DNA of 37,773 bases, from assembly GCA_021202925.1 (NCBI GenBank), contig JAJQCD010000011.1, positions 1-37,773 of the forward strand, in the 5' to 3' direction. The notes beneath the pieces were generated by a model that made no database searches, was not told the origin of the DNA, and saw nothing but the letters and a program-made list of their open reading frames with translations. Shown here piece after piece: positions 20,841 through 37,711 of the stretch. The translations under genes and the position numbers were made by a program. The stretch comes from Clostridiales bacterium (GTDB lineage Bacteria > Bacillota > Clostridia > Lachnospirales > Lachnospiraceae). How positions within the stretch are numbered: the first letter of the stretch is position 1; every line of letters begins with the position of its first letter.

Positions 20841-20930
20841 GAAAAACCAAACAAAAATGTCTGAACCAATAAAATGGTTAAGAAAATAATGTTAAAAACA
20901 AAGAATTTAATATTGAAACCAATAAAAAAG
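20841..20930 (+). promoter_or_regulatory. Operator-like repeats upstream of the first catabolic unit
   Basis: Related A-rich repeats: AAAAACCAAACAAAAATG (from 20842), GAACCAATAAAATGG (20863-20877), a weaker AAAAACAAAGAAT (around 20894) and GAAACCAATAAAAAAG (20915-20930). The last overlaps the -35 and spacer. Some copies are 19-20 nt apart, about two helical turns. They probably bind one or both DeoR repressors encoded in the locus, which is inference. Confidence 0.6.
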
Positions 20931-20941
20931 TGTGGTAATAT
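20913..20941 (+). promoter_or_regulatory. Promoter of the first catabolic unit
   Basis: TTGAAA (20913-20918), a 17-nt spacer and TAATAT (20936-20941) preceded by TGG (extended -10). It lies 36 nt upstream of the first dehydrogenase gene, and its spacer carries an operator-like repeat. Confidence 0.72.
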
Positions 20942-20977
20942 AAAAACAGAAAAGACAGAATTGGAGGTAGGAGAATC

Positions 20978-22054
20978 ATGAAAGCATTGGCAAGATACGG
21001 AAAAGCATTTGGCGGTTATCGTATGATCGATGTGCCGAGACCGATATGCGGGCCGGATGATGTGGTGATCCGCATCCGGGCGGCTGCGATCTGTGGCGCC
21101 GATATGAAGCATTATCAGGTTGAAAACGGTTCGGATGAGTTTAATTCCATCCGTGGTCACGAATTTGCGGGAGACATTGTGGAAGTCGGAGAGAATGTGG
21201 TGGACTGGAAGGTCGGCCAGCGAGTCGTCTCTGACAATACCGCACATGTATGTGGCGTGTGCCCGGCCTGTGAACGGGGAGATTTCCTCTGCTGCGAACA
21301 GAAGATCAACCTCGGTCTGGATAACAATACCTGGGGCGGCGGTTTCTCGAAATACTGCCTGGTGCCGGGTGAGATCCTGAAGATTCACAAGCATGCGCTC
21401 TGGGAGATTCCGGAGAATGTGAAATATGAGGAGGCGGCAGTCCTCGACCCGATCTGCAACGCCTATAAGGCAGTGGCACAGCAGTCTTCGTTGATGCCGG
21501 GGCAGGATGTGGTTGTGTTCGGAACCGGTCCGCTGGGACTGTTTTCTGTTCAGATTGCACGGATTATGGGCGCGGTCAATATCGTTATGGTTGGACTGCA
21601 GGAGGATACGAAGGTTCGCTTTGACGTGGCGAAGGAGCTGGGTGCGACACACTGCGTGAACGGTTCGACCGAGGACGTCGTGGCGAGATGCCAGGAGATC
21701 TGCGGCAAGGATAATCTGGGACTGGTGGTGGAATGTTCCGGAGCGAACATTGCACTGAAGCAGGCCATCGAGATGCTTCGTCTGAACGGGGAGGTTGTCC
21801 GGGTCGGCATGGGCTTTAAACCTCTTGATTTCTCGATCAATGATATCACATCCTGGAACAAGAGCATCATCGGGCATATGGCTTACGATTCCACATCCTG
21901 GAGAAACGCAATCCGCCTGCTTCAGAGCGGCGCGATCCGCGTTCAGCCGATGATTACTCATCGAATGGGACTGTCACACTGGCAGGAAGGCTTCCAGGCA
22001 ATGGCGGACAAGGAAGCGATCAAGGTGATTTTTACATATGATTATGACGACTGA
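20978..22054 (+). CDS. Zinc-dependent alcohol/polyol dehydrogenase (MDR family), copy 1
   Basis: A 358-residue medium-chain dehydrogenase that probably oxidises a sugar alcohol or related hydroxyl group with NAD(P). Catalytic zinc ligands are visible as Cys39 (ICGAD) and His61-Glu62 (GHEF). The structural zinc site is C92..C95..C98 and C106. The Rossmann loop GTGPLGLF lies near residue 188. Length and motifs match sorbitol/threonine-dehydrogenase relatives. GGAGGTAGGAG precedes the ATG. It opens a unit with a second dehydrogenase, an aldolase, a reductase and a kinase. The exact substrate cannot be assigned. Confidence 0.88.
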   Translation: MKALARYGKAFGGYRMIDVPRPICGPDDVVIRIRAAAICGADMKHYQVENGSDEFNSIRGHEFAGDIVEVGENVVDWKVGQRVVSDNTAHVCGVCPACERGDFLCCEQKINLGLDNNTWGGGFSKYCLVPGEILKIHKHALWEIPENVKYEEAAVLDPICNAYKAVAQQSSLMPGQDVVVFGTGPLGLFSVQIARIMGAVNIVMVGLQEDTKVRFDVAKELGATHCVNGSTEDVVARCQEICGKDNLGLVVECSGANIALKQAIEMLRLNGEVVRVGMGFKPLDFSINDITSWNKSIIGHMAYDSTSWRNAIRLLQSGAIRVQPMITHRMGLSHWQEGFQAMADKEAIKVIFTYDYDD

Positions 22055-22074
22055 CGAAGAGAGGACAGAATGAC

Positions 22075-23121
22075 ATGAAGAATACCGAAGCGATTCTGGT
22101 GACACCGGGGAAGATGGAGATTCAGGATGCACCCATGCCGGAGCCGAAGGACGATGAGGTTTTGCTGAAGGTGGAATATGTAGGAATGTGTGGATCGGAC
22201 ATTCACGGTTTTGAGTTCGGTCCCTTTATCCCGCCTAAGGATCCGAACCAGAAGATTGGTCTGGGACATGAATGCGGCGGTACCGTGGTGGGTGTAGGCT
22301 CCAAGGTGAAAAAGATCAAAGTGGGAGACCGGGTAAATATTGAACCGGGCGTGTCATGCGGGAAGTGCCGGTATTGCCTGTCCGGCCATTACAATATCTG
22401 TCCGGATGTGGATTTCCTGGCAACACAGCCAAACTACAGGGGCGCGTTGACGAATTACATCACGCATCCGGAGTCGATGACTTATAAGCTGCCGGATAAC
22501 ATGGATACGATGGAGGGTGCTCTGGTGGAGCCGGCCGCAGTAGGCATGCATGCGGCGATGGAAGCGGACGCGAAGCCGGGCAAGAAGATTGTGATTCTCG
22601 GCGCGGGCTGCATTGGCCTGATGACGCTGCAGGCCTGCCGGGTGATGGGCGCTTCTGAGATCGTGGTGGTAGACATGATTGATAAACGGCTGGATATGGC
22701 GAAGAAGCTTGGCGCGATGGAGACCGTCAACGGCGGCCGCGAGGATACGGTTGCGCGTGTAAAGGAGATCCTGGGAGACTGGGGTGCAGACATTGTTTTC
22801 GAAACGGCAGGAGCGAAGGCGACGGCCGCACAGACGACAAAGCTGGTCATGCGCGGCGGAAAAATCATGATTGTCGGCACCGTTTCCGGGGACACGCCGA
22901 TCAATTTCCTGAGCATCAACCGGGAAGTGACGATTCAGACGGTATTCCGCTACGCGAACAATTATCCGATGACCATTGATGCGATCTCGTCCGGCCGTTT
23001 TGATGTGAAATCCATGGTAACGGATGTTTACGATTATCATGAGGTACAGCGGGCGTTTGAGGAGTCGCTGAGCCGTAAGTCGGAGATTATCAAAGGCGTG
23101 ATCAAAATGGAGGATCTGTAA
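22075..23121 (+). CDS. Sorbitol/xylitol-dehydrogenase-like MDR enzyme, copy 2
   Basis: A 348-residue zinc dehydrogenase closer to the polyol (sorbitol/xylitol/iditol) dehydrogenase group. Catalytic zinc ligands: Cys39 in GMCGSDIHGFE and His65-Glu66 in GLGHECGG. Structural zinc: C95, C98, C101, C109. FLATQPNYRGALTNY and EPAAVGMHA are typical of sorbitol dehydrogenases, and GAGCIG is the nucleotide loop. It is clearly not a duplicate of the upstream dehydrogenase; the two share the fold but little sequence. The pair could oxidise at one position and reduce at another, converting one sugar into another through a keto intermediate. This is inference from gene pairing. Confidence 0.9.
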   Translation: MKNTEAILVTPGKMEIQDAPMPEPKDDEVLLKVEYVGMCGSDIHGFEFGPFIPPKDPNQKIGLGHECGGTVVGVGSKVKKIKVGDRVNIEPGVSCGKCRYCLSGHYNICPDVDFLATQPNYRGALTNYITHPESMTYKLPDNMDTMEGALVEPAAVGMHAAMEADAKPGKKIVILGAGCIGLMTLQACRVMGASEIVVVDMIDKRLDMAKKLGAMETVNGGREDTVARVKEILGDWGADIVFETAGAKATAAQTTKLVMRGGKIMIVGTVSGDTPINFLSINREVTIQTVFRYANNYPMTIDAISSGRFDVKSMVTDVYDYHEVQRAFEESLSRKSEIIKGVIKMEDL

Positions 23122-23158
23122 GCAGATACCGAACACATAAACAAAAAAGGAGATCAAT

Positions 23159-23995
23159 ATGTTAGCCAATATCAGATACTGGGAAGAAAAAGCAAAGGCA
23201 GGGCATTATGCGATTCCACATTTTAATGTATGGAATGCGGAGATGCTGATGGGCGTCATGGACGCGGCGGAAGAGCTGCGGGCGCCGGTGATCATTTCAT
23301 TTGGAACCGGATTCGTGGGGAATACCTCATTTGAGGATTTCTGCTGGATGATGGTATCCATGGCAAAGAAGGCAACGGTGCCGACGATCACGCACTGGGA
23401 TCACGGTCGCAGCATGGAGATTGTGCAGAATGCGTACAAGCACGGAATGAACTCGGTGATGAGAGACGCGTCCGCGCTCCCGTTTGAAGAAAATATCCGT
23501 CTTACAAAGGAAGTCGTCGATTATTTCCATCCGCTTGGCGTGCCGGTGGAGGCGGAGCTTGGCCATGTCGGAAACGAGACGATCTACGAGGAAGCGCTGG
23601 CGAATTATCAGTATACGGATCCGAGCCAGGCGGCGGAGTATGTCGAGAGAACCGGGTGCGATTCCCTGGCGGTAGCGATCGGCAACCAGCATGGCGTATA
23701 TACTTCGGAGCCGAAGCTGAACTTTGAAGTGGTGGAAAAGGTGAGAGACGCGGTCAGCGTTCCGCTGGTTCTTCACGGTGCTTCCGGTATTGGCGATGAA
23801 GATATCCGCACGGCAATCAGCCTGGGCATTACGAAGATCAATATCCACACCGAACTGTGTCAGGCGGCGATGGATGCGGTTCGCGCCCATGCGGACGAGC
23901 CGTTCCTGGCGCTGGAGCGTGAGGTGCGCGCGGCGGTGAAGAAGAGGGCGGCCGAGAAGATCATCCTTTTCGGAACAGACGGCAAGGCAGACTGA
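23159..23995 (+). CDS. Class II fructose/tagatose-bisphosphate-type aldolase, copy 1
   Basis: A 278-residue zinc aldolase of the FBA/GatY/KbaY family, which cleaves a ketose (bis)phosphate to DHAP and an aldehyde. Catalytic Asp81 and zinc His82 are in THWDHGRS, further zinc ligands are His178 (GNQHGVY) and His206 (LHGASG), and the phosphate-binding KINI.TE segment follows. All metal ligands are kept. Local deviations, such as MRDASALPFEEN where MIDGS is usual and GNQHG where GT.HG is common, suggest a non-standard substrate. AAAGGAG precedes the ATG. The PfkB kinase two genes downstream could supply its phosphorylated substrate. Confidence 0.9.
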   Translation: MLANIRYWEEKAKAGHYAIPHFNVWNAEMLMGVMDAAEELRAPVIISFGTGFVGNTSFEDFCWMMVSMAKKATVPTITHWDHGRSMEIVQNAYKHGMNSVMRDASALPFEENIRLTKEVVDYFHPLGVPVEAELGHVGNETIYEEALANYQYTDPSQAAEYVERTGCDSLAVAIGNQHGVYTSEPKLNFEVVEKVRDAVSVPLVLHGASGIGDEDIRTAISLGITKINIHTELCQAAMDAVRAHADEPFLALEREVRAAVKKRAAEKIILFGTDGKAD

Positions 23996-24066: not shown

Positions 24067-25047
24067 ATGAAAACAATCAAGATCGGTACACTGGATAAGC
24101 CGGTTTCGAGGATGGGGCTCGGAACCTGGGCGATCGGCGGCGGCTCTGCCTGGGGCGGAGACAAGGACAAGGCGGACAGCATCGCGGCGATTCAGGCGGC
24201 GCCGAAGCTGGGCGTCAATATGATCGACACGGCGCCGGGGTATAACTTCGGAAACAGCGAGCGGATTCTCGGTGAGGCACTGAAAGGCATGAAGCGGGAA
24301 GAAGTGGCAATCGTTACGAAATTCGGTGTAGTCTGGGACAGAGAAGGCTCCCTGTTTAACAAGGTGAACGGCAGACAGCTTTACTGGAACCTCTCCAGAG
24401 AGTCGATTCTGGAAGAAATCGACAAGTCTCTGGAACGTCTGGATGTGGATTACATCGATGTCTATATGTCCCACTGGCAGTCGGTGGAACCATATTACAC
24501 CCCAATCAGCGAGACCATGGATGTGCTGAATGAACTGAAGGCGCGGGGGAAGATCCGCGCGATTGGTGCGGCGAACGTGAGTCCGGCACAGGTGGAGGAA
24601 TATCTGAAGTGGGGCAGCCTGGATATTGTTCAGGCCAAATATTCCGTGCTTGACCGTGGCGTGGAGGCAGAGCTGCTTCCGATCTGTAAGGAACACGGTG
24701 TGGCGTTGCAGGCCTATTCACCGCTTGAAATGGGGCTTCTGACCGGAGCACTGCCGAGAGATTATCAGCCGGTGGGCGCGCAGATTCCGAAGAAGTGGTT
24801 CCAGCCGGAGAACATGCAGCGGGTATTTGATTACCTGGATGAACTGAAGCCATTGACTGAGAAGTACCAGTGTTCGATCGCAGACATCAATATGGCCTGG
24901 ATTCTGGCTCAGGATGAGAAGGTTGTGCTGCTGAGCGGCGCGATCAACGCAGAACAGATCAGCCAGAACGTGCGCGCGACGGAGATTGAACTGAGCGCGG
25001 AAGACGTGGCGATGATCCGCGACATGGCGGAAGCACTGGATCGATAA
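24067..25047 (+). CDS. Aldo/keto reductase
   Basis: A 326-residue NAD(P)H-dependent AKR barrel. The catalytic tetrad is in place: Asp54 (IDTAPGY), Tyr59 (GYNFG), Lys85 (TKFG) and His136 (MSHWQS). The C-terminal loop containing the LLSGAIN segment corresponds to the cofactor-binding region, with GA where many members have GA or GT. AKRs in such loci reduce aldehydes from aldolase cleavage or act on the sugar itself. AAGGAGG precedes the ATG. The spacer of 71 nt from the aldolase gene holds no other signal that I can see. Confidence 0.9.
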   Translation: MKTIKIGTLDKPVSRMGLGTWAIGGGSAWGGDKDKADSIAAIQAAPKLGVNMIDTAPGYNFGNSERILGEALKGMKREEVAIVTKFGVVWDREGSLFNKVNGRQLYWNLSRESILEEIDKSLERLDVDYIDVYMSHWQSVEPYYTPISETMDVLNELKARGKIRAIGAANVSPAQVEEYLKWGSLDIVQAKYSVLDRGVEAELLPICKEHGVALQAYSPLEMGLLTGALPRDYQPVGAQIPKKWFQPENMQRVFDYLDELKPLTEKYQCSIADINMAWILAQDEKVVLLSGAINAEQISQNVRATEIELSAEDVAMIRDMAEALDR

Positions 25048-25068: not shown

Positions 25069-26034
25069 ATGGGTAAAATTGACAGTTGTGATGTGGTGCT
25101 GGTTGGTGCGGCTCACATGGATCTCCAGGTTCGTCCGGTTGGGAAGGGGCTGTTGGACACGGCCTCCTATCCGGCGGAGGAAATGGTATGGTCAGTGGGA
25201 GGAGACGCCCTCAACGAGGCGACGATCATCAGCCGCCTGGGTCATCGGGTGAGACTTGTGAGCTGTATCGGCGACGATATGATCGGCGGCATGATCGTGG
25301 ATCATTGTAATCGCAATGGAATCGATACGACTTATCTGAAACGGGACAAAAATAAGGTAACCGGTATCAACATTGGACTGATTTGCGAAGACGGAGAACG
25401 CACCTTTATCAACAACCGGAGCGGCAGTATCTGGACCTTCAATCCGAACGATGTGGATTTAAATGTGGTAACCGAAGCAAAAATTCTGTGTTTCGCAAGT
25501 ATTTTCAACAATCCGCTGCTGGATGGGAAATTTATGCTGCGTTTGTTTCAACACGCAAAACAGCAGGGGATGACGATCTGTGCGGATATTGTCGGTGCGA
25601 AGCGGAGCGAGACGCTGGATGATATCAAGGAATCCCTTCCATATATCGACTATTTCTTCCCGAATTATGAGGAAGCGTGTAGGCTGACCGGCCTTACAAA
25701 CATCTATGAGATTGCGGATCGGCTGATTGGTCTGGGAGTCGGGCATCTGCTCTTAAAGATTGGCAAAAAAGGCTGTCTGGTGAAGACGAAGGATCGTTGC
25801 TTTATCGTTCCGGGGTATCCGGCGTCGAACTGTGTGGATACGACGGGAGCTGGTGACAACTTCGCCTCCGGGTTTATCTGCGGACTCCTGGAAAGGAAGG
25901 ACTTAAGGTACTGCGCGGAGCTTGCCAACTGCACGGCATCGATCGCCGTGGAGACGGTTGGCGCCACCGAAGGTGTGAAAAACCGGGAACAGGTTGAGGA
26001 ACGTTACCAAAAATATGTTGCATTTGTAAAATGA
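25069..26034 (+). CDS. PfkB-family carbohydrate kinase
   Basis: A 321-residue ribokinase-fold kinase. N-terminal GGDALNEA (44-51) binds the sugar, and the C-terminal signature DTTGAGDNFASGF (257-269) contains the anion hole and catalytic base Asp263. The family phosphorylates ketoses, ribose, nucleosides and similar compounds. With the class II aldolase in the same unit, a ketose-1-phosphate or ketose-6-phosphate kinase role resembling tagatose-type pathways is plausible. It is tightly spaced between the AKR and DeoR genes. Confidence 0.92.
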   Translation: MGKIDSCDVVLVGAAHMDLQVRPVGKGLLDTASYPAEEMVWSVGGDALNEATIISRLGHRVRLVSCIGDDMIGGMIVDHCNRNGIDTTYLKRDKNKVTGINIGLICEDGERTFINNRSGSIWTFNPNDVDLNVVTEAKILCFASIFNNPLLDGKFMLRLFQHAKQQGMTICADIVGAKRSETLDDIKESLPYIDYFFPNYEEACRLTGLTNIYEIADRLIGLGVGHLLLKIGKKGCLVKTKDRCFIVPGYPASNCVDTTGAGDNFASGFICGLLERKDLRYCAELANCTASIAVETVGATEGVKNREQVEERYQKYVAFVK

Positions 26035-26055: not shown

Positions 26056-26820
26056 ATGGCTCAAAAGGAACGCTTGGAACAGATTCGTGAGATGATACAT
26101 ATCGACAGAAGGGTTACTGTGTCAGACCTGAGTGAAAAGCTTGGTGTTACTCCGGAGACGATTCGCAGGGATTTAAAAATACTGGAACAGGAAAAGCTTC
26201 TTACCAGGAGACATGGCGGAGCCGAACTTGTACATCTGAATTCCCTGGAGCAGGTGAATTATCTTAAACGTGAGCAGACACACGTCGCAGAAAAACATAC
26301 GATCGGGTTGCTTGCGGCAGAACTGATCCCAAAGAATTCGTGCATTGGTTGCGATGCCAGTTCCACATCACAGGAGCTTTTGGAGGTGTTGCGGGATCGG
26401 GAAGATCTTCTGATTGTAACAAATTCGGTTAAGGCAATTTTTGAGATGGAGCGGTCAAAATTCAGGCTGTTGTTAACCGGAGGTTATATAAACAGACAGT
26501 CTTATTCATTGCAGGGCGGAGCGGCCAGACATCTGTTGCGGGAATATCATCTGGAAATTGTTTTTATGAGCTGCAAAGGCCTCTCTCTTGACGGTGGAAT
26601 TTTTGATTCTCATGATTTTGAGATTGAGATGAAGCAAGCCATGCTGGAGCAGGGGAGCAGGGTAGTTTTGCTGGCGGATCATTCAAAATTTGACTGTGTT
26701 GGTTTTTCCAGACTTGCAAATATCAGCCAGATTGACGCAGTTGTCACGGATAAATGTCCGTCGGACGAATGGATGAAGATGCTGAAGGATTGCGGTACGG
26801 CTGTGTATTATCCGCAATGA
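26056..26820 (+). CDS. DeoR-family transcriptional repressor, copy 1
   Basis: A 254-residue sugar-responsive repressor. The N-terminal winged helix is diagnostic: VTVSDLSEKLGVTPETIRRDL then LLTRRHGGA. The C-terminal DeoR sensor domain shows GCDASSTSQELL, TGGYINRQSYSLQG and LLADHSKFD, regions that bind phosphorylated sugar effectors in this family. It is the last gene of the first catabolic unit and a close relative of the DeoR gene at the end of the locus; both begin MAQKERL. It likely represses through the AACCAAnAAAA-type repeats upstream of both units. Confidence 0.94.
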   Translation: MAQKERLEQIREMIHIDRRVTVSDLSEKLGVTPETIRRDLKILEQEKLLTRRHGGAELVHLNSLEQVNYLKREQTHVAEKHTIGLLAAELIPKNSCIGCDASSTSQELLEVLRDREDLLIVTNSVKAIFEMERSKFRLLLTGGYINRQSYSLQGGAARHLLREYHLEIVFMSCKGLSLDGGIFDSHDFEIEMKQAMLEQGSRVVLLADHSKFDCVGFSRLANISQIDAVVTDKCPSDEWMKMLKDCGTAVYYPQ

Positions 26821-26961: not shown

Positions 26962-27021
26962 GAAACAAACAACTTAATTTTGGAAAACAAACAAATAATT
27001 TTTTAAAACCAACAAAAAAGC
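26962..27021 (+). promoter_or_regulatory. Operator-like direct repeats upstream of the transporter unit
   Basis: Three related repeats: GAAACAAACAACTT (26962-26975), GGAAAACAAACAAATAATT (26982-27000) and AAAACCAACAAAAAAGC (27005-27021). Their key C positions are 22 and 21 nt apart, on one face of the helix. The last is nearly identical to the repeat overlapping the promoter of the first unit and touches this -35 box. They are likely DeoR-type operators. Confidence 0.62.
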
Positions 27022-27099: not shown

Positions 27100-27960
27100 A
27101 TGAGTATTTTTCTGCAGGCAGTGTACGAGGGAATCATTAACGGATCCGCGTTGGCACTGGTAGCAATGGGTATCGCATTGGTATGGGGCGTTATGGGTAT
27201 CCTGAGTTTTTCTCAGGGTGAATTTCTGATGGTTGCCATGTTCGCCGCTTTTTATCTGAACGTGTATCTGGGGCTCGACCCGATTGCGGCGTTACCGTTC
27301 TGTATGGCGATCATGTTCTGTATTGGTTATGTGATCTATAAGCTGATCATTGCGAGGGCTTTGAAGGGACCGATTCTTGGACAGAGACTGATCACCTTTG
27401 CGTTGAGCATGGTGCTGGTCAATATGGCGCTTCTGTTTTTTGGGGGAGAGTTCCGGATTGTGCAGGATGTTGCGATCCAGGGAAGTATTGATCTGGGCAT
27501 GATCATTGTGGCGAAGAATAAGCTGGTGCCGTTTGTGATTTCCATGTGTGTGGCAGCGTTTATGTTCTGGTTCCTGAACAAGACAAGAGCGGGGAAGGCA
27601 ATCCGCGCAACCTCCATGAACAAGACGGCGGCTGGCCTGGTAGGAATCGATTCGGAAAAAGCATACGCGATGGCCTTTGGCCTTTCGGCGGCGATAGCGG
27701 GAGCGGCCGGATGCGCACTTACTTACTATTATTACATCTATCCCAGTGTGGGCAGTAATTTCCAGCTTTTTGGATTTATTGCGGTCGTTATGGGGGGCTT
27801 CGGCAGCATTCCCGGCGCGTTGCTGGGTGGCCTGATCATGGGACTGGCGGATTCTCTGACAGGCGTATATTTCAGCCCGTCGTTCAAGTATGTTGGAATC
27901 TGCGTTGCGTTTCTGCTGATCGTGCAGTTTAAGCCGAAAGGACTGTTTGGAGGGAAGTAA
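27100..27960 (+). CDS. HAAT-type ABC transporter permease (LivH-like)
   Basis: A 286-residue polytopic membrane protein of the branched-chain amino acid (HAAT) permease class. Family signatures include NGSALALVAMGIALVWGVMG at the N-terminus, the SFSQGEF segment, GKAIRATSMNKTAAGLVGID and a C-terminal GGFGSIPGALLGG stretch. The ATG at 27100 has AAAGGAGG 12 nt upstream; longer in-frame readings enter the promoter. The usual substrates are hydrophobic amino acids, urea, amides or aromatic acids, so its presence in a sugar-catabolic unit is unexpected. It is followed after 1 nt by the second permease gene. Confidence 0.93.
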   Translation: MSIFLQAVYEGIINGSALALVAMGIALVWGVMGILSFSQGEFLMVAMFAAFYLNVYLGLDPIAALPFCMAIMFCIGYVIYKLIIARALKGPILGQRLITFALSMVLVNMALLFFGGEFRIVQDVAIQGSIDLGMIIVAKNKLVPFVISMCVAAFMFWFLNKTRAGKAIRATSMNKTAAGLVGIDSEKAYAMAFGLSAAIAGAAGCALTYYYYIYPSVGSNFQLFGFIAVVMGGFGSIPGALLGGLIMGLADSLTGVYFSPSFKYVGICVAFLLIVQFKPKGLFGGK

Positions 27961-27961
27961 G

Positions 27962-28954
27962 ATGAAAAAAACGATTGCTGATAATAAAAAATGGTTACTG
28001 GGATTTTTCATCTGCCTGATTGTGGCGATCATTTTTCCACAGGTGGTGAGAATCCAGTTTGTCTGGAATCTGCTCTCTCTGATTATGGTCTGGGCTGTCG
28101 TAGGCATGGGCTGGAATGTCATTGGCGGTTACTGTGGCCAGGTTTCCAATGGGCACAGTCTGTTCTATGGAATCGGTGCCTATACGGTTGCGGTTACCTG
28201 CAAATACTGGCAGATTTCTCCGTGGATTTCCATCTGGATCGGAGCGTTGATTTCCGCATGTCTCGCGTTTGTCATGGGTAAACCGCTTCTGAGACTAAAA
28301 GGACATGTGTTCGCGATCTCTACCATGGCACTTGCGGAGTGCGGCCGTATCATCTTCATTAACTGGGCATGGATTGGCGGCGCGACGGGCATCTACATCT
28401 TTACAAAGGGTGTGAATGAATGGGCGTATATGCAGTTTAAGAATCCGCTGAACTATTATTATGTATTCCTGATTTTTGTGGTAGCGATCCTTCTCATCAT
28501 TAAGGCGCTGGACAAATCAAAGTTTTTTTATTACCTGCGAACCATCAAGGGGAATGAAATGGCGGCGGAGAGCGTCGGAATCGATGTGGCAAAATATAAG
28601 ATTCGTGCTTATATGATGAGCGCAGCGATTGTGAGTATCGGCGGTAGCCTGTATGCGCAGTTCCTGCTTTACATCGACCCGTCTACACTGATGACCCTGA
28701 ATATCTCCATGATGATCGTTTTGACTGCGGTTATGGGCGGCGTGGGAACCGTGGAAGGACCTATTTTGGGTGCGATCGTGCTGACGACGATTTCTGAATA
28801 TTCACGAGTGTATCTGGGACAGTATGGCGGGCTGGATCTGATTCTTTACGGCGCACTGGTCATCCTGATTGTGTTGTTTATCCCGGGCGGTATTCTTTCC
28901 ATCTTCAGCAAGTGGTTTGAGAAGCGTAAGGAAGTTGCAAAGAGTAAAGGTTGA
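27962..28954 (+). CDS. HAAT-type ABC transporter permease (LivM-like)
   Basis: The second permease of the transporter, 330 residues with about 8-10 hydrophobic segments. LivM-type features include GQVSNGHSLFYGIGAYTVAV and the EAA-like stretch RTIKGNEMAAESVGIDVAKYKI, where the ATPases dock. GGAGG lies within the end of the preceding gene, so translation is probably coupled. A C-terminal cytoplasmic Lys-rich tail ends the protein. Confidence 0.93.
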   Translation: MKKTIADNKKWLLGFFICLIVAIIFPQVVRIQFVWNLLSLIMVWAVVGMGWNVIGGYCGQVSNGHSLFYGIGAYTVAVTCKYWQISPWISIWIGALISACLAFVMGKPLLRLKGHVFAISTMALAECGRIIFINWAWIGGATGIYIFTKGVNEWAYMQFKNPLNYYYVFLIFVVAILLIIKALDKSKFFYYLRTIKGNEMAAESVGIDVAKYKIRAYMMSAAIVSIGGSLYAQFLLYIDPSTLMTLNISMMIVLTAVMGGVGTVEGPILGAIVLTTISEYSRVYLGQYGGLDLILYGALVILIVLFIPGGILSIFSKWFEKRKEVAKSKG

Positions 28955-28971
28955 GCGATAGGAGGCTGATT

Positions 28972-30424: not shown

Positions 30425-31909
30425 ATGAAGGATCCGGTTTATGTGGCTGTGGACATTGGTGCTACGGGAATCAAACTTGCGGCGGCTGCATGGAAGGACG
30501 AAAAGCTGGAAGTAAAGGATATTTATGCAGTGAAAAATGCCCCGCTTGTGGAAGCGGGTGGAGAGTATGCGGACATTGCTTATATGCTACGGGTAATCCG
30601 GGAAGGACTGGAGCGTTTTTCGGAAAAGTATTCCTGTGTTTCTGTTGGAATTGATACCTACGGGAATGGTTATGGAATGTTGGATCAAAATGGAAAACTG
30701 GTCATGAATCCTCATTATTACCGGGACAGAAGGATTGACGGTATTATGGACCGGGTGCATGAGCATTTCACTGATTGGGAGTTATATGAGCGGATGGGAA
30801 ACATCCCAATTAAGACACGTGGGCTGTTTCATCTGTATCAGGATGTCCTGGAAGACTCGGAAAATATCCGTCGAGGATCGGATTTCCTTCCACTTCCTAA
30901 TTTGCTGGAATATTTCATGACCGGTGAGAGGGGAGCGGAACGAACAATTGCCTCGGTGCTTTATCTGCTCGACAAGGATGGGGAAAACTGGAACTACGAG
31001 GTGCTGAGACGGTTGGGGATTCCGACAAATGTATTTGCGTCTCTGTTGGAGCCGGGGGTGAAAAAGGGAACGATTCAGGAAAGCTTCTCACAAAATCATG
31101 AGGTTCAGGGTGTGCCGGTCATCACAGTGGCGGGGCATGATACCGAGTCGGCACTTCTGGCAGTGCCAGGACTGAATGAGTCCAAAGCCTTTGTCAGTAT
31201 GGGGACTTCTTTTATATTCGGAGCGAGGGTAAATGAGCCGGTGGTGAATGAGGCAAGTTTTTGTTATGGTTTTAAAAACATGAGGGGAGCTTTCGGAAGC
31301 TATTCTCTTTGCAAGGATGTTCCGGGATTCTGGATTCTGGAACGATGCATGGAAGCATGGCGTGCAGAGATCCCGGATCTGGATTATGACATGGTATGTC
31401 AGGCCGTGAGTGAGGCTGGAGAGAATCGTACGTTTCTCAATATCAGTGATGATCGGTTCCGGGTATCGGAATCCAATATTCTGACTGCAATTGAGAACTA
31501 TTGTATTGATACCGGGCAGGAGCCTGTGAGGGAATGGAAGGCAGTAGCCAGATGCCTGTTTGAGAGTTATGCACTGTATATCCGGTATAATCTGGAATTG
31601 CTTGGCAGTCTGACCGGGAAACGCTATGAGAGTCTGGAGGCTCTGAACGGAGGCGTCCGTAATACAACGCTTCTCCAGATGCTTGCGGATGCAACAGGGA
31701 TTCCGGTCACGGCTCAGAGTGACTGGGCGTCGGCGTGTGGGAATCTGCTGATGCAGTTGTATGCCACGGAAGTCTTCGCGTCACGGGAAGATCTGGATCG
31801 GGCGGCAGAACATTCCTGTCGGCCGGTGATCTACAGGAGCAGACCGTCTTCCTTCTGGGAAGAACGTTTGCAATATATGAAACAACGACAATTATTTGAA
31901 GGAGAATGA
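30425..31909 (+). CDS. FGGY-family carbohydrate kinase (rhamnulokinase-like)
   Basis: A 494-residue sugar kinase. The N-terminal phosphate loop is AVDIGATGIK (8-17). GIDTYGNGYGMLDQNGKL, AGHDTESALLAVPG and GGVRNTTLLQMLADATGIPV recall the rhamnulokinase branch, where DTWG.D, GHDTASAV and GG..N..LLQ occur. The changed DTYGN box suggests a different sugar. The Shine-Dalgarno GGAGG lies in the end of the ATPase gene. Together with the following class II aldolase and isomerase it forms an isomerase-kinase-aldolase set of the rhamnose/fucose type. Confidence 0.9.
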   Translation: MKDPVYVAVDIGATGIKLAAAAWKDEKLEVKDIYAVKNAPLVEAGGEYADIAYMLRVIREGLERFSEKYSCVSVGIDTYGNGYGMLDQNGKLVMNPHYYRDRRIDGIMDRVHEHFTDWELYERMGNIPIKTRGLFHLYQDVLEDSENIRRGSDFLPLPNLLEYFMTGERGAERTIASVLYLLDKDGENWNYEVLRRLGIPTNVFASLLEPGVKKGTIQESFSQNHEVQGVPVITVAGHDTESALLAVPGLNESKAFVSMGTSFIFGARVNEPVVNEASFCYGFKNMRGAFGSYSLCKDVPGFWILERCMEAWRAEIPDLDYDMVCQAVSEAGENRTFLNISDDRFRVSESNILTAIENYCIDTGQEPVREWKAVARCLFESYALYIRYNLELLGSLTGKRYESLEALNGGVRNTTLLQMLADATGIPVTAQSDWASACGNLLMQLYATEVFASREDLDRAAEHSCRPVIYRSRPSSFWEERLQYMKQRQLFEGE

Positions 31910-31912: not shown

Positions 31913-32578
31913 ATGGACAGCAGAATTAATACAGCAGTGATGGACGAGATTATGCGGGTCGGTTCAGAAATGCAGGATCAGGAACTGGTAAATACATTTG
32001 AGGGAAATCTTTCAATTAAGGAAGGCGACCTGATGTATATTACGCCAAGCCGGACCAGCAAAAAGGCGTTGACCTACGACAACATTTGTGTATTTGATTT
32101 GTCAACGTTTGATTTCTCAAAACCGGTGAAGGATCAGAAAATCTGGGGTAGCGGAAAGCCTTCTTCCGAGACGCTGATGCATGCGGGGGCGTATACGGTA
32201 AAGGAGGGCGTGAATGCTTGTATTCACTGCCATGCACCGATTCTGACCAGTTATGCAGTGGCGAATAAAAGTATTGATGTAAAATGTCATCCGGAATTAT
32301 TGTTCCACTATCACGATATCCCGTGTGTCCCTTATGGAATGCCCGGATCGACGGAAATTATTGAAAAGGCAAGACCGTACCTGCTCAACCGGAACCTGGT
32401 TCTGATGGCGAATCACGGTGTGCTGAGTATCGCGTCGAATCTGGCACTGGCCTGTCAGAGAATTGTGTCGGCAGAAAAGCTTGGGAAAGAGCTGATCCTG
32501 GCGAATCTGCTTGGCGGCCCGGTCGATATTCCGCCGACAGAGGTGATCCGTCTGATGGAGAGACCGCTGGATCTGTGA
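31913..32578 (+). CDS. Class II aldolase (fuculose/rhamnulose-1-phosphate type)
   Basis: A 221-residue member of the aldolase II/adducin family, which includes L-fuculose-1-P aldolase, rhamnulose-1-P aldolase and ribulose-5-P 4-epimerase. Family elements are visible: EGNLS (30-34), TPS (44-46), the catalytic acid in PSSETLMH (Glu86) and zinc ligands His105 and His107 (CIHCHAP) and His168 (ANHGV). With the preceding FGGY kinase it would cleave a ketose-1-phosphate to DHAP and an aldehyde. Aldolase rather than epimerase activity is inferred from context. It starts 3 nt after the kinase stop. Confidence 0.9.
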   Translation: MDSRINTAVMDEIMRVGSEMQDQELVNTFEGNLSIKEGDLMYITPSRTSKKALTYDNICVFDLSTFDFSKPVKDQKIWGSGKPSSETLMHAGAYTVKEGVNACIHCHAPILTSYAVANKSIDVKCHPELLFHYHDIPCVPYGMPGSTEIIEKARPYLLNRNLVLMANHGVLSIASNLALACQRIVSAEKLGKELILANLLGGPVDIPPTEVIRLMERPLDL

Positions 32579-32592
32579 TAAAGGGAGAGGCT

Positions 32593-33462
32593 ATGTACAA
32601 AAATCTGAACCCGAGAACCATGGGGATGACAGCGTATTCATTTGAGGAAGTGCTTGGTGCGGCTTACCGTAATGGGTTCGAAGGTATTGAGGTTCCGGCA
32701 CATGCGTTTGGCAGCGTGGAAAACGCCAGAGAGCAGGGAAGAAAACTTGCGGATATGGGCATGAGATGGGGGCTTATGATGGCACCTTGCGACATGTTCA
32801 AGGTGAGTGATGAGGAGTTCTCGGCTGCGATCGAACAGTGGGCACGATGGCTGGAGCGGGCGCGTGCGGCGGGGTGCGATAAGGCATATAACCATCTTTG
32901 GCCAGGGAGCGACAATCGGGATTACGCGGAAAATTTTGACTGGTATCATGAGCGCCTGAAGAAAATCTGGCACATTATGAAAGAAAATGGTTTTCAGTAT
33001 GGCCTGGAATATCAGGGGCTTCCGACGATCAATCATGAATTTCGATTTCCGTTTCTCTGCAATCTGGCCGGTGCCATGGCGCTGGCGGATAGTGTGGATC
33101 ACCAGATTGGTTTTGTCTTTGACTGTATTCACTGGCATACGTCAGGAGGGGGAAACAACGATTTGTATCTGGCTTTGAATAACATTGACCGGATTGTTAA
33201 TCTTCATCTGGATGATGTATATACAGGAGAATCGAAGTCTGATTTTATTTTCCGTGAGAGAGCCATGCCGAATGAGAGCGGTGTGATTGATTCAACTGCA
33301 ATTGTCAGGGCTTTTCACAGGAAGGGATATGACGGACCGGTCATTGTTGAGCCAATGTCGCCGACGACAGACCGATATGCGCGTATGGATCTGGATGCGG
33401 CAGCAAAGGAAGCATCGCTTTGCCTGGACACTATATTCAGAGAGGCAGGCGTCTTCATATAA
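32593..33462 (+). CDS. Sugar phosphate isomerase/epimerase-like TIM barrel
   Basis: A 289-residue protein of the xylose-isomerase-like TIM-barrel (AP-endonuclease 2) superfamily. Likely metal ligands occur at the expected strand ends: Glu in GLEYQG, Asp/His in FVFDCIHWH, His/Asp in LHLDD and Glu in VEPMS. Relatives interconvert ketoses, aldoses, hydroxypyruvate or tartronate semialdehyde. The ATG at 32593 is preceded by AGGGAGAGG; a GTG at 32575 lies in the end of the previous gene. Position next to the kinase and aldolase points to isomerisation of the imported sugar or its product. Confidence 0.87.
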   Translation: MYKNLNPRTMGMTAYSFEEVLGAAYRNGFEGIEVPAHAFGSVENAREQGRKLADMGMRWGLMMAPCDMFKVSDEEFSAAIEQWARWLERARAAGCDKAYNHLWPGSDNRDYAENFDWYHERLKKIWHIMKENGFQYGLEYQGLPTINHEFRFPFLCNLAGAMALADSVDHQIGFVFDCIHWHTSGGGNNDLYLALNNIDRIVNLHLDDVYTGESKSDFIFRERAMPNESGVIDSTAIVRAFHRKGYDGPVIVEPMSPTTDRYARMDLDAAAKEASLCLDTIFREAGVFI

Positions 33463-33528
33463 TTTACAATCATGGTTCTGTCGGTTTGTCTCGACGACCA
33501 TGAAGAACACCTGAAGGAGGAAAAATGT

Positions 33529-34899
33529 ATGCAGAAAAAAGTATTGGCAGTGGCTCTTGCAACGACGATGGGAATGAGCCTGGCAGCGTGTGGCGGTAGC
33601 AGCAGTAGCAGTGGATCCGCGAGCACAACGGCGGCAGCGGCCGCAGCATCGGAGACGACTGCCGGAGAAAGTGCGGCTGAAGCTTCAGAGGCAACAGAAG
33701 ACGCAAACGTAGAAACCATTAAGATTGGTTTCCTGACTCCAATGTCCGGTTCAAATGCGACCTATGGTCTGCAGGTCAAGGCAGCCGGTGAGATGATTCG
33801 TGACGTAATCAATGAGGCCCATCCGGAACTGGCCTGCGCACTGGCTGAGGCGGCAGGGCTTCCGAATCTGAACGGAGCGAAGATCGAGCTGGTATTTGCG
33901 GATTCCAAGCAGGATCCAACGACAGCGGCATCTGAGGTAAAGCGTCTGATCACGGAGGAAAACGTGGTTCTGATGACTGGCCAGTATACGAGTGCGGTGA
34001 CCAAGGCTGTGGCCGTTGTGACGGAGACATACGGCATTCCGCTTCTGACCGCAGGTTCCTCCCCGTCTCTGACCGATCCGGATACCGGTCTTGAGTGGTA
34101 TTTCCGTTATTGTCCGAATGATGATTATTTCATAGAGGATGCATTCAAATATCTGGACTATCTGAACGAGTCGCAGGGAGCGGATATCAAGACGGTCGCG
34201 TTGGTGTCGGAAGACACGGAATTTGGTGCCAATATCCGAATCAGTGAACAGACTCTGGCGGAGCAGTATGGTTATGAAGTGGTTGAGGATATTTCTTATT
34301 CTTCTTCCGCGACAAACGTATCTTCTGAGGTGCTGAGAATCAAGACGGCAGATCCGGATGCGATCTTTATGGCTTCCTATTCATCCGACGCGATTCTGTA
34401 TATGAAGACATTTAAGGAGCAGAATTATCTGCCGAAGCTGATTCTGGGTCAGCGTGGCGGTTTTGTCCAGACAGATTTCCTGGATACGATGGGCAAGGAT
34501 ATCGAGTACATCTGCACGACTGCAGGTTGGTCCGCAGATATCGATACGGATGCAAGCAAGCAGCTGGTTGAACTGTACGAGCAGTACACACCTGATGGAA
34601 CTGTTTTGAGCGAGGGTTGTGTAAAGGATATGTCAAATCTTCTGATTGGTGCGATTGCAATCAACCAGGCCGGCTCCACCGAGCCAGAAGCAATTCGTGA
34701 AGCACTTCGGAACCTGGATGTCGATACCTCGATTCTGCCAATTCCGTGGACCGGGATTACAATGAACGAATATGGCCAGAACACTTCCGGTAACTCCTTC
34801 ATTGTGCAGAGAATCGATGGTGAGTATAGAACGGTTTATCCGACAAACGCGGCTGCAATTGAGACGACGGTTCCGATGCCGGGATGGGATGAGAGATAA
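33529..34899 (+). CDS. HAAT-type substrate-binding lipoprotein (LivJ-like)
   Basis: The extracellular receptor of the ABC transporter, 456 residues. A signal peptide ends in the lipobox SLAAC with Cys21 as the lipidated residue. A Ser/Ala/Thr/Glu-rich linker (about 24-62) leads to a Peripla_BP_6-type domain starting KIGFLTPMSG, with FADSKQDPTTAASEVKRLI and VVLMTGQYTSAVTKAVA in family positions. GAAGGAGG lies 8 nt before the chosen ATG; an out-of-frame ATG is at 33525. It lies four genes after the ATPases rather than beside the permeases. Its ligand would define the substrate of the whole locus. Confidence 0.92.
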   Translation: MQKKVLAVALATTMGMSLAACGGSSSSSGSASTTAAAAAASETTAGESAAEASEATEDANVETIKIGFLTPMSGSNATYGLQVKAAGEMIRDVINEAHPELACALAEAAGLPNLNGAKIELVFADSKQDPTTAASEVKRLITEENVVLMTGQYTSAVTKAVAVVTETYGIPLLTAGSSPSLTDPDTGLEWYFRYCPNDDYFIEDAFKYLDYLNESQGADIKTVALVSEDTEFGANIRISEQTLAEQYGYEVVEDISYSSSATNVSSEVLRIKTADPDAIFMASYSSDAILYMKTFKEQNYLPKLILGQRGGFVQTDFLDTMGKDIEYICTTAGWSADIDTDASKQLVELYEQYTPDGTVLSEGCVKDMSNLLIGAIAINQAGSTEPEAIREALRNLDVDTSILPIPWTGITMNEYGQNTSGNSFIVQRIDGEYRTVYPTNAAAIETTVPMPGWDER

Positions 34900-34929: not shown

Positions 34930-35757
34930 ATGTTAGTGACACTTGATGAGTTATTGCCGGAATATCTGAACAAAGATGCGGCTGTCGGGGCTTTTAATCT
35001 GGCGGTATTTCCGGATATTCCGACGCTGATTTCGGCGGCAGAAGAGATGAATGCACCGATTATTCTTCAGGCCAGCCCTTCTGTCTCCGAGTTTATCGGA
35101 TACGATTATTGGGGGATGATGGCCCGCGAAATGGCGAAAAGGGCTTCTGTTCCGGTTGTCATGCATCTGGATCATGCGAGCAATGTGGAAGCGATCTGGA
35201 AAGCCCTGGATGCCGGTTATTCATCCGTTATGTTTGACGGATCCCAGCTTCCTTTTGACGAGAACGTGAGAATTACCAGAGAAGTGGTGGAGCGGGCAAA
35301 GAAATATGGTGTGTCTGTTGAGGCGGAGATTGGATCGGTTGCTTACCTGGGTAAGGACACACACAAGGATCAGCTCTCTGATCCGAAGGAAGCCGCAGAT
35401 TTTGCGGAGGCTTCCGGCTGTGGTTGTCTGGCTGTTTCGGTGGGCACAACTCATATGATGCGGACACAGACGGCAAATATCCATTTTGATTTGCTGGAAG
35501 AGATTCAGAATGCAGTTAAGATACCGCTGGTGATTCACGGCTCCACGGGACTTCCGGATGATCAGCTTGTAAAAATGAGACACTACCATGTATGTAAAGT
35601 AAACATCGGAACGGCTTTGCGAGTTGCTTTTGATAAAGGACTTCGGGCGGAACTGGCGGAAAGACCAAACGATTACATCTATAAGGATCTCTTGCAGAGA
35701 CCGTTGGAGGATGAAAAGCAGGTCGTGAAACACAAGATGGAGCAGTTGGGATTCTGA
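34930..35757 (+). CDS. Class II fructose/tagatose-bisphosphate-type aldolase, copy 2
   Basis: A second 275-residue zinc aldolase of the FBA/GatY family, distinct from the first copy. Asp81/His82 (HLDHAS), the MFDGSQLPFDENV phosphate region, EAEIGS, His175 (GTTHMM) and His203 (IHGSTG) provide the catalytic base and zinc sites, with VNIGTALR at the phosphate end. The canonical residues are closer to known aldolases than those of copy 1. It follows the receptor gene by 30 nt. It makes a third aldolase in the locus, and its substrate could be the product of the FGGY or PfkB kinase. Confidence 0.9.
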   Translation: MLVTLDELLPEYLNKDAAVGAFNLAVFPDIPTLISAAEEMNAPIILQASPSVSEFIGYDYWGMMAREMAKRASVPVVMHLDHASNVEAIWKALDAGYSSVMFDGSQLPFDENVRITREVVERAKKYGVSVEAEIGSVAYLGKDTHKDQLSDPKEAADFAEASGCGCLAVSVGTTHMMRTQTANIHFDLLEEIQNAVKIPLVIHGSTGLPDDQLVKMRHYHVCKVNIGTALRVAFDKGLRAELAERPNDYIYKDLLQRPLEDEKQVVKHKMEQLGF

Positions 35758-35758: not shown

Positions 35759-36694
35759 ATGGAATATTTTTCAATTATTGTTCCTAAACTGGCAAACCTT
35801 CTGCTTTTGCTACTGACCGGTGTGATTGCCTTTCGGGTAAAGGCAATCACACCGGATAGTCTGAAGGTGCTGTCGGGTCTTCTGATGAAGATTATTCTTC
35901 CGGTTTTATCGTTCAATCTGTTGTTGGAACAGAGAGTAACGCTTTTTGATCTGGTTTCGTTAAAAACAATGGTTTTGGGTCAGCTTGCCATCTATCCGTT
36001 GGCAATATTGGCCGGATTTTTGACGGTTCGCCTGATGAAAATGGAGTATCCACAGAAGAATGTCCATCTGGGATGTACAGTTTGCGGCAATTATGCATAT
36101 GTCGTATTGCCGTTGCTGTATTCCCTGTATCAGGGAACGCGTGCGACAATTTATATTCCGTTGGGATGTTCCCTGGAGGCTTTGGCTATCTGGACGGTCG
36201 GACTTGCTCTTTATACGCAAGGGCAGGGGCGAAATGGGCTGGCAGGGTTGAAGAACATGTTGAATCCGACAACCTTTGCTGTATTATTAGGTTTCTTGGT
36301 TAACACGATTCGCCTTCCAATTCCTCAGCTTGTGGCGGATACCATTGATCAGATCGGATCTGTCAGCACTCCGCTTGGCATGATCTATCTTGGCGCGAGC
36401 CTTTGTATTATGGAGTGGCGGAATGTGAGCAACCTGGAGCATGCTCTGGCGTATGTGGCCGCAAAGATGTTTCTTGTGCCGCTTCTGGTTTATGTGATAG
36501 TTAGTCATTTTCTTCCGGAAACGGAGAGCATTGTGCTGATGTTGACGGCGGCGTCTCCCTCCGCAACAATTGCGGTTATGATATCGAGAGAGTTTGGACT
36601 GGATGCGGATTATGCGGGAGAGATTGTTTCAATATCTACAATTTCCTGTGTGGTGACAATTCCTTTATTATTCTTATGCGTTGGTTTCTTGTAA
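35759..36694 (+). CDS. AEC-family (auxin efflux carrier) membrane transporter
   Basis: A 311-residue protein with about ten hydrophobic helices, matching AEC permeases. An N-terminal helix is followed by SLKVLSGLLMKIILPVLSFNLL; the centre has GNYAYVVLPLLYSLYQG, and the C-terminal half has ASPSATIAVMISREFGLD. Bacterial AEC members move malate, malonate or other carboxylates, so it may export an acid or take one up. The start lies 1 nt after the aldolase stop with only a weak Shine-Dalgarno, suggesting translational coupling. A perfect long palindrome lies within codons 20-33. Confidence 0.88.
   Translation: MEYFSIIVPKLANLLLLLLTGVIAFRVKAITPDSLKVLSGLLMKIILPVLSFNLLLEQRVTLFDLVSLKTMVLGQLAIYPLAILAGFLTVRLMKMEYPQKNVHLGCTVCGNYAYVVLPLLYSLYQGTRATIYIPLGCSLEALAIWTVGLALYTQGQGRNGLAGLKNMLNPTTFAVLLGFLVNTIRLPIPQLVADTIDQIGSVSTPLGMIYLGASLCIMEWRNVSNLEHALAYVAAKMFLVPLLVYVIVSHFLPETESIVLMLTAASPSATIAVMISREFGLDADYAGEIVSISTISCVVTIPLLFLCVGFL
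35817..35855 (+). repeat. Perfect 17-bp inverted repeat inside the AEC gene
   Basis: CCGGTGTGATTGCCTTT (35817-35833) and AAAGGCAATCACACCGG (35839-35855) are exact reverse complements around a CGGGT loop. In mRNA this would be a very stable hairpin about 58 nt after the start codon. No T-tract follows. The encoded protein remains normal for the family. Confidence 0.95.
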
Positions 36695-36727
36695 TATAAT
36701 TTTTGAATTAGATATTTTTTCTCGTGT

Positions 36728-36769
36728 TTCAAATAAAAAGCAAAAAAATAATTGCAGGAACCAAAATGG
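36728..36769 (+). promoter_or_regulatory. Operator-like repeats at the second DeoR promoter
   Basis: TTTCAAATAAAAAGC (from 36728), GCAAAAAAATAATT (around 36740) and GAACCAAAATGG (36758-36769) resemble the repeats at the other two promoters. The last lies within the promoter spacer, which would allow autorepression. The match is weaker than at the other sites. Confidence 0.42.
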
Positions 36770-36780
36770 AACGTTATAAT
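36752..36780 (+). promoter_or_regulatory. Promoter of the second DeoR gene
   Basis: A perfect TATAAT -10 (36775-36780) lies 17 nt after a weak TTGCAG -35 (36752-36757). The repressor gene thus has its own promoter in the 155-nt gap after the AEC gene. The A/T-rich bases before it (36695-36750) show no GC-rich terminator. Confidence 0.65.
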
Positions 36781-36849
36781 AAATTCTGTGGCATGTTTTG
36801 TGGTTAAAATATAGATGTAATGAATGGCAGGTACATGGAGGAGACAGAT

Positions 36850-37620
36850 ATGGCACAAAAGGAGCGGCTAGATTTGATTCGTCAGGCAGTGCAGAGGGAC
36901 AGAAAGGTCAGTGTTTCAGAACTGAGTAAAATACACGCAGTTACAGAAGAAACAATCCGGAGAGATCTGGAGAAGTTAGAGAAGGAAGGATTGGTTAATC
37001 GGACTTACGGAGGTGCTGTACTGAACATAGAGACGATATCGGAACATATTCATTATGTGCGGCGACGCGAGATTAACAAAGACGCAAAAAACAGGATTGC
37101 ACAGCTGACATTGCCGGAGATTTCAGCGAATGCAGTAATTGGCGCAGACGCCAGTTCGACAGTGATGCAGGCTGTTTCCTGCCTGAAGGAGCGGTCGGAT
37201 GTCTCGATTCTGACGAATTCTGTGCAGATTGTCAGAGATTTGGATCAGTCATCGATCAATATTATTTCAACTGGTGGAGCGGTCAACAGGAATACCTGTT
37301 CCATGCAGGGAAGCATTGTAAGAAAAGTGTTAAGTGAATATTATGTGGATATTGTACTGATTAGCTGTACGGCACTGGAATTAGATGGCGGTGTATTTGA
37401 CGCGAATGAGGAAGAAGCTGAGTTAAAGAAGGTTTTGATCGAACGTGGCAGGAAAATCATTTTGTTGGTGGATCATACAAAATTCAATAAGGTAGCATTT
37501 GTTAAGCTATTGGATTTTTCCCAGTTGGACATGATTATAACTGATCAGGAGCCTTCCGAAGAATGGAAGGAAAAATTTCGCCAGATCAATGTTGAACTCC
37601 GCTATCCGGCGGAGAATTAG
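36850..37620 (+). CDS. DeoR-family transcriptional repressor, copy 2
   Basis: A 256-residue repressor paralogous to the one ending the first unit; both start MAQKERL and align along their full length. The winged helix is VSVSELSKIHAVTEETIRRDLEKLEKEGL, in which the T.ETIRRDL recognition core is kept. The sensor domain shows GADASSTVMQAV, STGGAVNRNTCSMQG and LLVDHTKFN. The ATG at 36850 has GGAGGAG 6 nt upstream; an in-frame ATG at 36820 is less supported. It probably answers to a phosphorylated intermediate of the pathway and may share operators with its paralogue. Confidence 0.93.
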   Translation: MAQKERLDLIRQAVQRDRKVSVSELSKIHAVTEETIRRDLEKLEKEGLVNRTYGGAVLNIETISEHIHYVRRREINKDAKNRIAQLTLPEISANAVIGADASSTVMQAVSCLKERSDVSILTNSVQIVRDLDQSSINIISTGGAVNRNTCSMQGSIVRKVLSEYYVDIVLISCTALELDGGVFDANEEEAELKKVLIERGRKIILLVDHTKFNKVAFVKLLDFSQLDMIITDQEPSEEWKEKFRQINVELRYPAEN

Positions 37621-37682
37621 GTTAATTGTTAATGAAATCCTACGTAAAAAATTATTCCGGTTTATCCGGGTGGAGAAAGACA

Positions 37683-37711
37683 GAATCCTGCATTGCGGGA
37701 TTCTTATTTTT
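37683..37711 (+). terminator. Terminator after the second DeoR gene
   Basis: GAATCCTGC and GCGGGATTC form a 9-bp stem (one G-U pair) around an ATT loop, followed by TTATTTTT. This is a textbook rho-independent terminator 60 nt after the stop codon and closes the locus. The remaining 62 nt to the window edge show only a weak imperfect hairpin. Confidence 0.88.

Follow-up and report, generated by a model that had tools for sequence, protein, structure and literature searches.

A contig of a lachnospiraceal Clostridiales bacterium (JAJQCD010000011.1, assembly GCA_021202925.1) carries, side by side, a counterpart of the Escherichia coli ydj cluster and a complete ATP-binding cassette (ABC) importer of the amino-acid (HAAT) type. 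We conclude that the two units probably form one catabolic system, in which the ydj enzymes are supplied with a carboxylated, sugar-like substrate by this branch of the HAAT family. The window analysed is the entire contig (37,773 bases; the sequence view ends at 37773). Seventeen genes, close-packed on one strand from 20978 to 37620, make up the two units, and their families are those named in a first-pass annotation made from the DNA letters alone:

20978..22054, + strand: YdjL ortholog, Zn-dependent dehydrogenase (85% identity to E. coli YdjL; Pfam)
22075..23121, + strand: YdjJ ortholog, Zn-dependent dehydrogenase (75% to YdjJ)
23159..23995, + strand: YdjI ortholog, class II dihydroxyacetone phosphate (DHAP) aldolase of the FBA type (82% to YdjI)
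24067..25047, + strand: YdjG ortholog, aldo-keto reductase (59% to YdjG; above the NCBIfam equivalog cut-off of NF049922)
25069..26034, + strand: YdjH ortholog, PfkB sugar kinase (52% to YdjH)
26056..26820, + strand: YdjF-like DeoR regulator 1 (42% to YdjF)
27100..27960, + strand: HAAT permease 1, LivH type (PF02653; 31% to LivH; the open reading frame begins at 27022, the probable start is the ATG at 27100)
27947..28954, + strand: HAAT permease 2, LivM type (PF02653; 27% to LivM)
28951..29706, + strand: HAAT ATPase 1, LivG type (family profiles and E. coli comparison)
29696..30421, + strand: HAAT ATPase 2, LivF type (family profiles and E. coli comparison)
30425..31909, + strand: FGGY kinase, on the rhamnulokinase/fuculokinase side of the family
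31913..32578, + strand: class II (FucA-type) aldolase, AldII (presumed catalytic Glu and three Zn-binding His kept)
32575..33462, + strand: TIM-barrel sugar isomerase/epimerase-like protein (PF01261)
33472..34899, + strand: HAAT receptor (Peripla_BP_6) with lipoprotein-like signal and QRGGF at the LivJ Glu226 column
34930..35757, + strand: second FBA-type class II aldolase, FBA2 (33% to E. coli YdjI, 35% to the first aldolase)
35759..36694, + strand: AEC-family permease (Mem_trans; family profile)
36820..37620, + strand: YdjF-like DeoR regulator 2 (47% to YdjF)

Six genes of the left unit (20978-26820) match E. coli K-12 YdjL, YdjJ, YdjI, YdjG, YdjH and YdjF over nearly their full length, at 42-85% identity, and ydjL and ydjJ are separated by 20 bases. 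Judged by these identities, the left unit is the known ydj cluster and no new pathway. This corrects the first-pass annotation, which had not recognised the gene combination as a described pathway. It had also offered a match to a characterised cluster as grounds for refutation; such a match was found for the left half only, and none of the right-unit proteins lies above any NCBIfam equivalog cut-off. RefSeq names YdjH an L-glycero-L-galacto-octuluronate kinase and YdjI an octuluronate-1-phosphate aldolase. The E. coli kinase and aldolase, studied in 2019, reportedly act on long carboxylated (eight-carbon) sugar acids, for which we know of no natural source. When the window proteins were compared with the YdjK-like MFS transporter, the epimerase and the SDF transporter of another ydj locus (L082), no match was obtained at E ≤ 1e-3.

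Searches with the FGGY kinase, covering 145 relatives (E ≤ 1e-40) and 397 family-level and 391 class-level genomes (E ≤ 1e-78), gave no listed match above 33% identity apart from the kinase itself, and a scan of genome contigs with it recovered no relative. Since no close relatives were found, loci were sought through YdjI instead. GTDB species genomes were scanned with a YdjI alignment, and the best 80 of 106 confirmed loci were analysed. All five ydj enzymes are present at 40% identity or more in 70 of them; the other ten, several on short contigs, were kept in the counts. Transporter labels rest on identity cut-offs set by us and on the content of the fetched stretch, and contig ends make some of them incomplete (e.g. 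in L150). Counted in this way, 11 of the 80 loci have HAAT permeases of the same subfamily (LivH at 57-88% identity). Thus, the HAAT-ydj pairing is more than chance. All genes named in the first-pass annotation are present, and its reading of a HAAT importer within a sugar-catabolic locus is supported. The YdjK-type MFS is absent from nine of these eleven loci. The other 69 carry YdjK-type MFS with SDF (30), YdjK-type with YdjE-type MFS (21), YdjK-type MFS alone (9), SDF alone (3), CUT1 (2), SDF with CUT1 (1), YdjE-type MFS (1) or no transporter that we could see (2). A CUT1-like sugar ABC importer adjoins the ydj genes in L100 (L100:4171-7787), L103 and L104. Since MFS, SDF, CUT1-like and HAAT transporters all stand beside ydj genes, at least four transporter classes accompany one enzyme set.

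The linkage is also visible in gene order. L115 and its extension L186 read ydjL, ydjJ, ydjI, DeoR, LivHMGF, FGGY, AldII, TIM barrel, receptor, FBA2, ydjH, ydjG and DeoR, a single merged cluster with ydj genes to either side of the HAAT module. In L144, ydjH and ydjG enclose the HAAT operon. The HAAT label changes four times, at four places, on a quick tree of YdjI, YdjL and YdjJ (81 rows). A search with the receptor through 299 sampled genomes of the family (E ≤ 1e-50) gave two matches, the window's own and one in genome G372 (66% identity). Both are ydj-linked, and in G372, whose YdjI is at 61%, the order is ydj, HAAT, TIM barrel, receptor and FBA2. The same search through 291 sampled genomes of the class (E ≤ 1e-45) gave ten, namely the window's own and nine others at 33-40% identity. 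These nine each adjoin LivH, LivM and LivG (one with LivF cut off); their fetched stretches hold no ydj gene, and all nine fall outside the ydj-linked clade of receptors.

That clade comprises all 16 ydj-linked receptors and is supported at 98/96 in a 32-row tree, six long outer branches of which were flagged. Aligned with LivJ, all 16 have retained Ser79 and show either Ser or Thr at position 102; in an isoleucine docking study, LivJ Ser79 and Thr102 are polar contacts (PMC6983066). LivJ Tyr150 is replaced by Phe. At the Glu226 column, all 16 have QRGGF with an invariant Arg, where LivJ and LivK have EGV and two other receptors of the window's genome have DGM and DTW. Within the alignment, Gln-Arg is the only residue feature peculiar to the ydj-linked set. 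The pocket residues at most suggest a ligand that has a carboxylate and lacks an alpha-amine. Four loci encode, next to the HAAT-ydj cluster, a second, divergent HAAT receptor on the opposite strand, which also has QRGGF (L146:479-1810, L149:563-1912, L151:554-1960 and L163:1420-2799). Elsewhere among the HAAT loci, the genes after an operon in L065 (15943-19765) encode an MtnA-like protein, an amidohydrolase, a nucleoside phosphorylase and a class II aldolase, an arrangement that resembles 5'-deoxynucleoside salvage. A reading along those lines was rejected, as only L065 of nine loci has this gene set and the receptors concerned lie outside the ydj-linked clade.

The full module of HAAT, FGGY, AldII, TIM barrel, receptor and FBA2 is found in the window and in 3 of the 80 ydj loci, L091 (Blautia sp. 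SUG67), L092 and L115 (both Lachnospiraceae). HAAT genes without FGGY and AldII occur in L116 (Herbinix), L118 (Lachnotalea glycerini), L144, L145, L146, L149, L151 and L163. The set of FGGY kinase, FucA-type aldolase, TIM barrel and FBA2 is therefore an optional extension, present as a whole in four loci including the window. Its kinase is 47-64% identical to the kinases of the three sister loci and at most 34% among the other matches listed; it reaches 30% to RhaB, whose GHDT stretch it keeps. The FucA-type aldolase (28% to FucA) keeps Glu73, which we take to be catalytic, the presumed Zn ligands His92, His94 and His155, and Tyr113, and differs at Thr26, Gly44 and Tyr209. Of the annotated TIM-barrel isomerase, the barrel stands (Pfam AP_endonuc_2 is above cut-off, no NCBIfam model is), and the activity could be that of an isomerase or an epimerase. 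The AEC permease, which may move a carboxylated product, is present in the window, L091/L184 and L092/L185 and not in L115/L186. As a control, 12 neighbourhoods of FGGY homologs (5-20 kb each) were inspected, and none has LivH or LivM matches. Among the plasmid matches listed, the FGGY kinase reaches at most 34%, the receptor at most 39% and the TIM barrel one weak match, and a search of E. coli genomes with positions 30425-34400 gave no match.

Similar repeats precede both operons, and a terminator-like site follows the second:

20844 and 20915 (20844..20925), + strand: two operator-like repeats RAAMCMAAYAA before ydjL (consensus matches)
26962..27015, + strand: three operator-like repeats at a spacing of 21-22 bases, upstream of the HAAT operon
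37682-37704, + strand: terminator-like hairpin after DeoR regulator 2 (such sites are no commoner than in shuffled sequence)

The repeat at 20915 overlaps a promoter-like site (20913-20941). RAAMCMAAYAA occurs five times in the window, each time within one of the two promoter regions; the number expected from shuffles is 0.31, a comparison biased by the choice of the motif by eye. A second form, RAAACMMASAA, likewise chosen by eye and mainly from the promoters of relatives, occurs six times, four of them in the two promoter regions (0.40 expected). A shorter form of RAAMCMAAYAA precedes LivH in L091 and L092, and an expectation-maximisation motif search returned only a poly-A smear. DeoR regulator 2 (47%) is closer to YdjF than is DeoR regulator 1 (42%). 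The repeats make it likely that the two operons are co-regulated; the "co-regulated unit" of the first-pass annotation is an inference from such operator-like repeats.

Genes for 5-oxoprolinase (pxp) also recur near ydj genes. At least one of PxpA, PxpB and PxpC is encoded in the flanks of 11 of the 80 loci (L092:3650-7329, L095:19302-20831, L100:2-2318, L103:2-3130, L104:17192-19646, L110:1-798, L111:1-618, L146:16121-18728, L149, L151 and L163:12962-15572). All eleven belong to the 17 loci without a visible YdjK- or YdjE-type MFS, and none to the 63 with one (Fisher p ~1e-9, uncorrected for relatedness). When relatedness is allowed for, there are five independent pairs, of which about 2.3 favour the association of pxp with MFS absence and none opposes it, which is not significant. 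In L163, 16 bases lie between ydjH and the start of pxpB, and a YdjF-like regulator gene stands after the pxp set. Searches for pxpB in 17 genomes found one to three matches in each of 16, including all 11 pxp-linked ones. Importers established for 5-oxoproline are PxpT and TRAP receptors, and HAAT systems do not appear beside them in the part of PMC13274462 consulted. On plasmids of Azospirillum and Agrobacterium (L089:8836-18941 and L090:580-11605), HAAT operons stand beside putative hydro-lyase and 5-oxoprolinase-type genes; these operons are possible candidates for HAAT importers of 5-oxoproline.

Three other accounts of the locus have to be weighed. The right unit could be a self-standing pathway for an L-fucose- or L-rhamnose-like 6-deoxysugar, unrelated to ydj, given that its kinase is nearest to RhaB and the fuculose kinase 4c23 and its aldolase to FucA-type chains. 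We consider this very improbable: the kinase scores 268 bits against a rhamnulokinase cut-off of 528 and 71 against a fuculokinase cut-off of 471, none of the 17 window proteins matches E. coli RhaA or FucI at E ≤ 1e-5, and HAAT pairs with ydj in eight of eleven loci and in G372 where FGGY and AldII are missing. It is also improbable, if less so, that the HAAT system and the ydj genes only share an island, the importer taking up some ordinary amino acid or carboxylate. Amino acids, amides or urea are the usual cargo of HAAT systems, the class-level relatives of the receptor at 33-40% identity occur apart from ydj in other Clostridia, and the residue at LivJ Tyr202 is kept; but the four changes on the ydj tree, the placement of HAAT among the ydj genes of L144 and L115, the single receptor clade and QRGGF in place of the acid all speak for a closer tie.

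The last account sharpens our own reading. It takes the substrate to be a sugar (polyol) linked to 5-oxoproline or to glutamine/glutamate, of the Amadori or opine type, which HAAT or other importers would take up as the conjugate, the ydj enzymes would degrade in its sugar chain, and PxpABC would finish by recovering glutamate. The confinement of all 11 pxp loci to the MFS-less set, the 16 bases between ydjH and pxpB in L163 and the low number of pxpB matches in each of the 11 genomes argue for it. Moreover, the Azospirillum and Agrobacterium receptors, which stand beside 5-oxoprolinase-type genes, branch next to the ydj-linked clade (with weak support, 77/57), a glutamate dehydrogenase gene lies near the pxp gene of L110, and a D-2-hydroxyacid dehydrogenase gene adjoins pxp in L092 and L100. 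On the other hand, the window has no pxp match, and the two pxpB copies of its genome are on other contigs; PxpABC is, as these two copies illustrate, common. HAAT is present in only five of the eleven pxp loci, of which L110 has only PxpA, L111 only part of PxpB and L095 only PxpB and PxpC. Some MFS-less labels stem from cut contigs (that of L150 begins in the ydjJ flank and that of L110 stops after ydjG). The loci are related, and over the five independent pairs the association is not significant; no enzyme that would split a sugar from an amino acid was identified. We therefore regard this account as tentative and, on balance, unlikely. About as doubtful is the evolutionary version, in which the HAAT clade left amino acids to become the dedicated ydj importer of a carboxylated, Amadori- or opine-like sugar conjugate, for example hexitol- or ketosyl-pyroglutamate. 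If true, the E. coli ydj enzymes would cover the sugar-chain part of a pathway for sugar-amino-acid conjugates, and the second kinase-aldolase module would be an added branch.

Several observations also count against our preferred reading, the import of a carboxylated sugar-like compound for the ydj pathway by this HAAT branch. In L116 and L118, HAAT adjoins a retained YdjK-type MFS and is thus not always a replacement for it, and FGGY and AldII were not seen in G372 or in eight of the eleven HAAT-linked loci. The linked receptors were for the most part reached by way of ydj loci, a bias from which the family and class receptor searches alone, both made on samples, are free. As to the pocket, LivJ Glu226 is presumed to be the ammonium ligand, Tyr202 is kept, and the acid is also missing from 11 nearer stand-alone relatives (YCGGF, DAGF, AAGF) and from the distant receptor of L063 (GTF). 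The closest solved relative (PDB 8wch_A, E 3e-75) is titled only "Probable Leu/Ile/Val-binding protein", and a literature search on 8wch found no paper. L115 lacks the RAAMCMAAYAA-type motif upstream of both ydjL and LivH, and L091 and L092 lack it upstream of ydjL. Finally, the physiological substrate of the E. coli ydj pathway is still not identified, according to PMC9602453.

With these points set against it, we still favour import by HAAT for ydj. The identity of the ydj genes, their recurrent pairing with HAAT and the receptor residues point to the kind of substrate that the first-pass annotation had proposed, carboxylated and sugar-like or conjugated, and probably cleaved to DHAP. In the scheme that we envisage, the HAAT branch would import a carboxylated, polyol- or ketose-like compound, held by a receptor that keeps Ser/Thr at the LivJ carboxylate positions and would have no acid at the ammonium position. 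For the steps after import we extrapolate from the E. coli data. YdjL and YdjJ (and YdjG) would place the carbonyl, YdjH would phosphorylate the ketose end, and YdjI would cleave the product to DHAP and a carboxylated aldehyde. The second module (TIM-barrel isomerase or epimerase, FGGY kinase, FucA-type aldolase and FBA2) might deal with what remains after that cleavage, or with a variant that differs in stereochemistry or chain length, likewise giving DHAP, and the two YdjF-like regulators would read the similar repeats before both operons.

Among the papers listed in searches of the open-licence PubMed Central literature, none links ydj to HAAT or 5-oxoprolinase or describes the gene combination. 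What appears to be new is that an orphan pathway already described is accompanied by a class of importer that the listed papers do not report for it, and that a second kinase and aldolase set extends it. Some ydj clusters of gut and rumen bacteria stand beside an importer of the amino-acid type, and some lie next to 5-oxoprolinase genes. The pairing and the pxp adjacency narrow the search to a carboxylated, possibly pyroglutamate-linked, sugar, and the question of the ydj substrate becomes testable by a ligand screen of a single receptor. If our reading is true, a sugar-acid branch would be added to a transporter family filed under amino-acid uptake, and "branched-chain amino acid binding" would be the wrong name for such receptors.

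Outside the two units, the window encodes Tad/type II-like secretion genes (893-8981; prepilin peptidase, T2SSE ATPase, T2SSF and DUF5702), followed by a DUF6382-FHA protein (9741-11081).

The system can be compared with four known ones. It resembles the L-fucose and L-rhamnose pathways (FucK-FucA and RhaB-RhaD; 4c23, 4c24/4c25) in pairing an FGGY kinase with a class II aldolase, but identity is only about 30%, the isomerase is of another type and the importer is of the HAAT class. The likeness to 5-oxoproline utilisation (PxpABC with PxpT or TRAP) lies in the 5-oxoprolinase genes that adjoin other ydj loci and, in two Alphaproteobacteria, relatives of the HAAT system, whereas the window itself has no pxp gene. 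With the E. coli K-12 ydjEFGHIJKL cluster, it shares orthologs of YdjL, YdjJ, YdjI, YdjG, YdjH and YdjF in one cluster; however, it has no detectable YdjK-like MFS and adds HAAT, the FGGY kinase, the FucA-type aldolase, the TIM barrel, FBA2, the AEC permease and a second DeoR regulator. Finally, like the HAAT importers LivJKHMGF and Urt, it has two BPD_transp_2 permeases, two ATPases and a Peripla_BP_6 receptor, but here the receptor gene lies downstream among catabolic genes, its product carries QRGGF at the Glu226 column, and the enzymes linked to it are those of sugar-acid breakdown.

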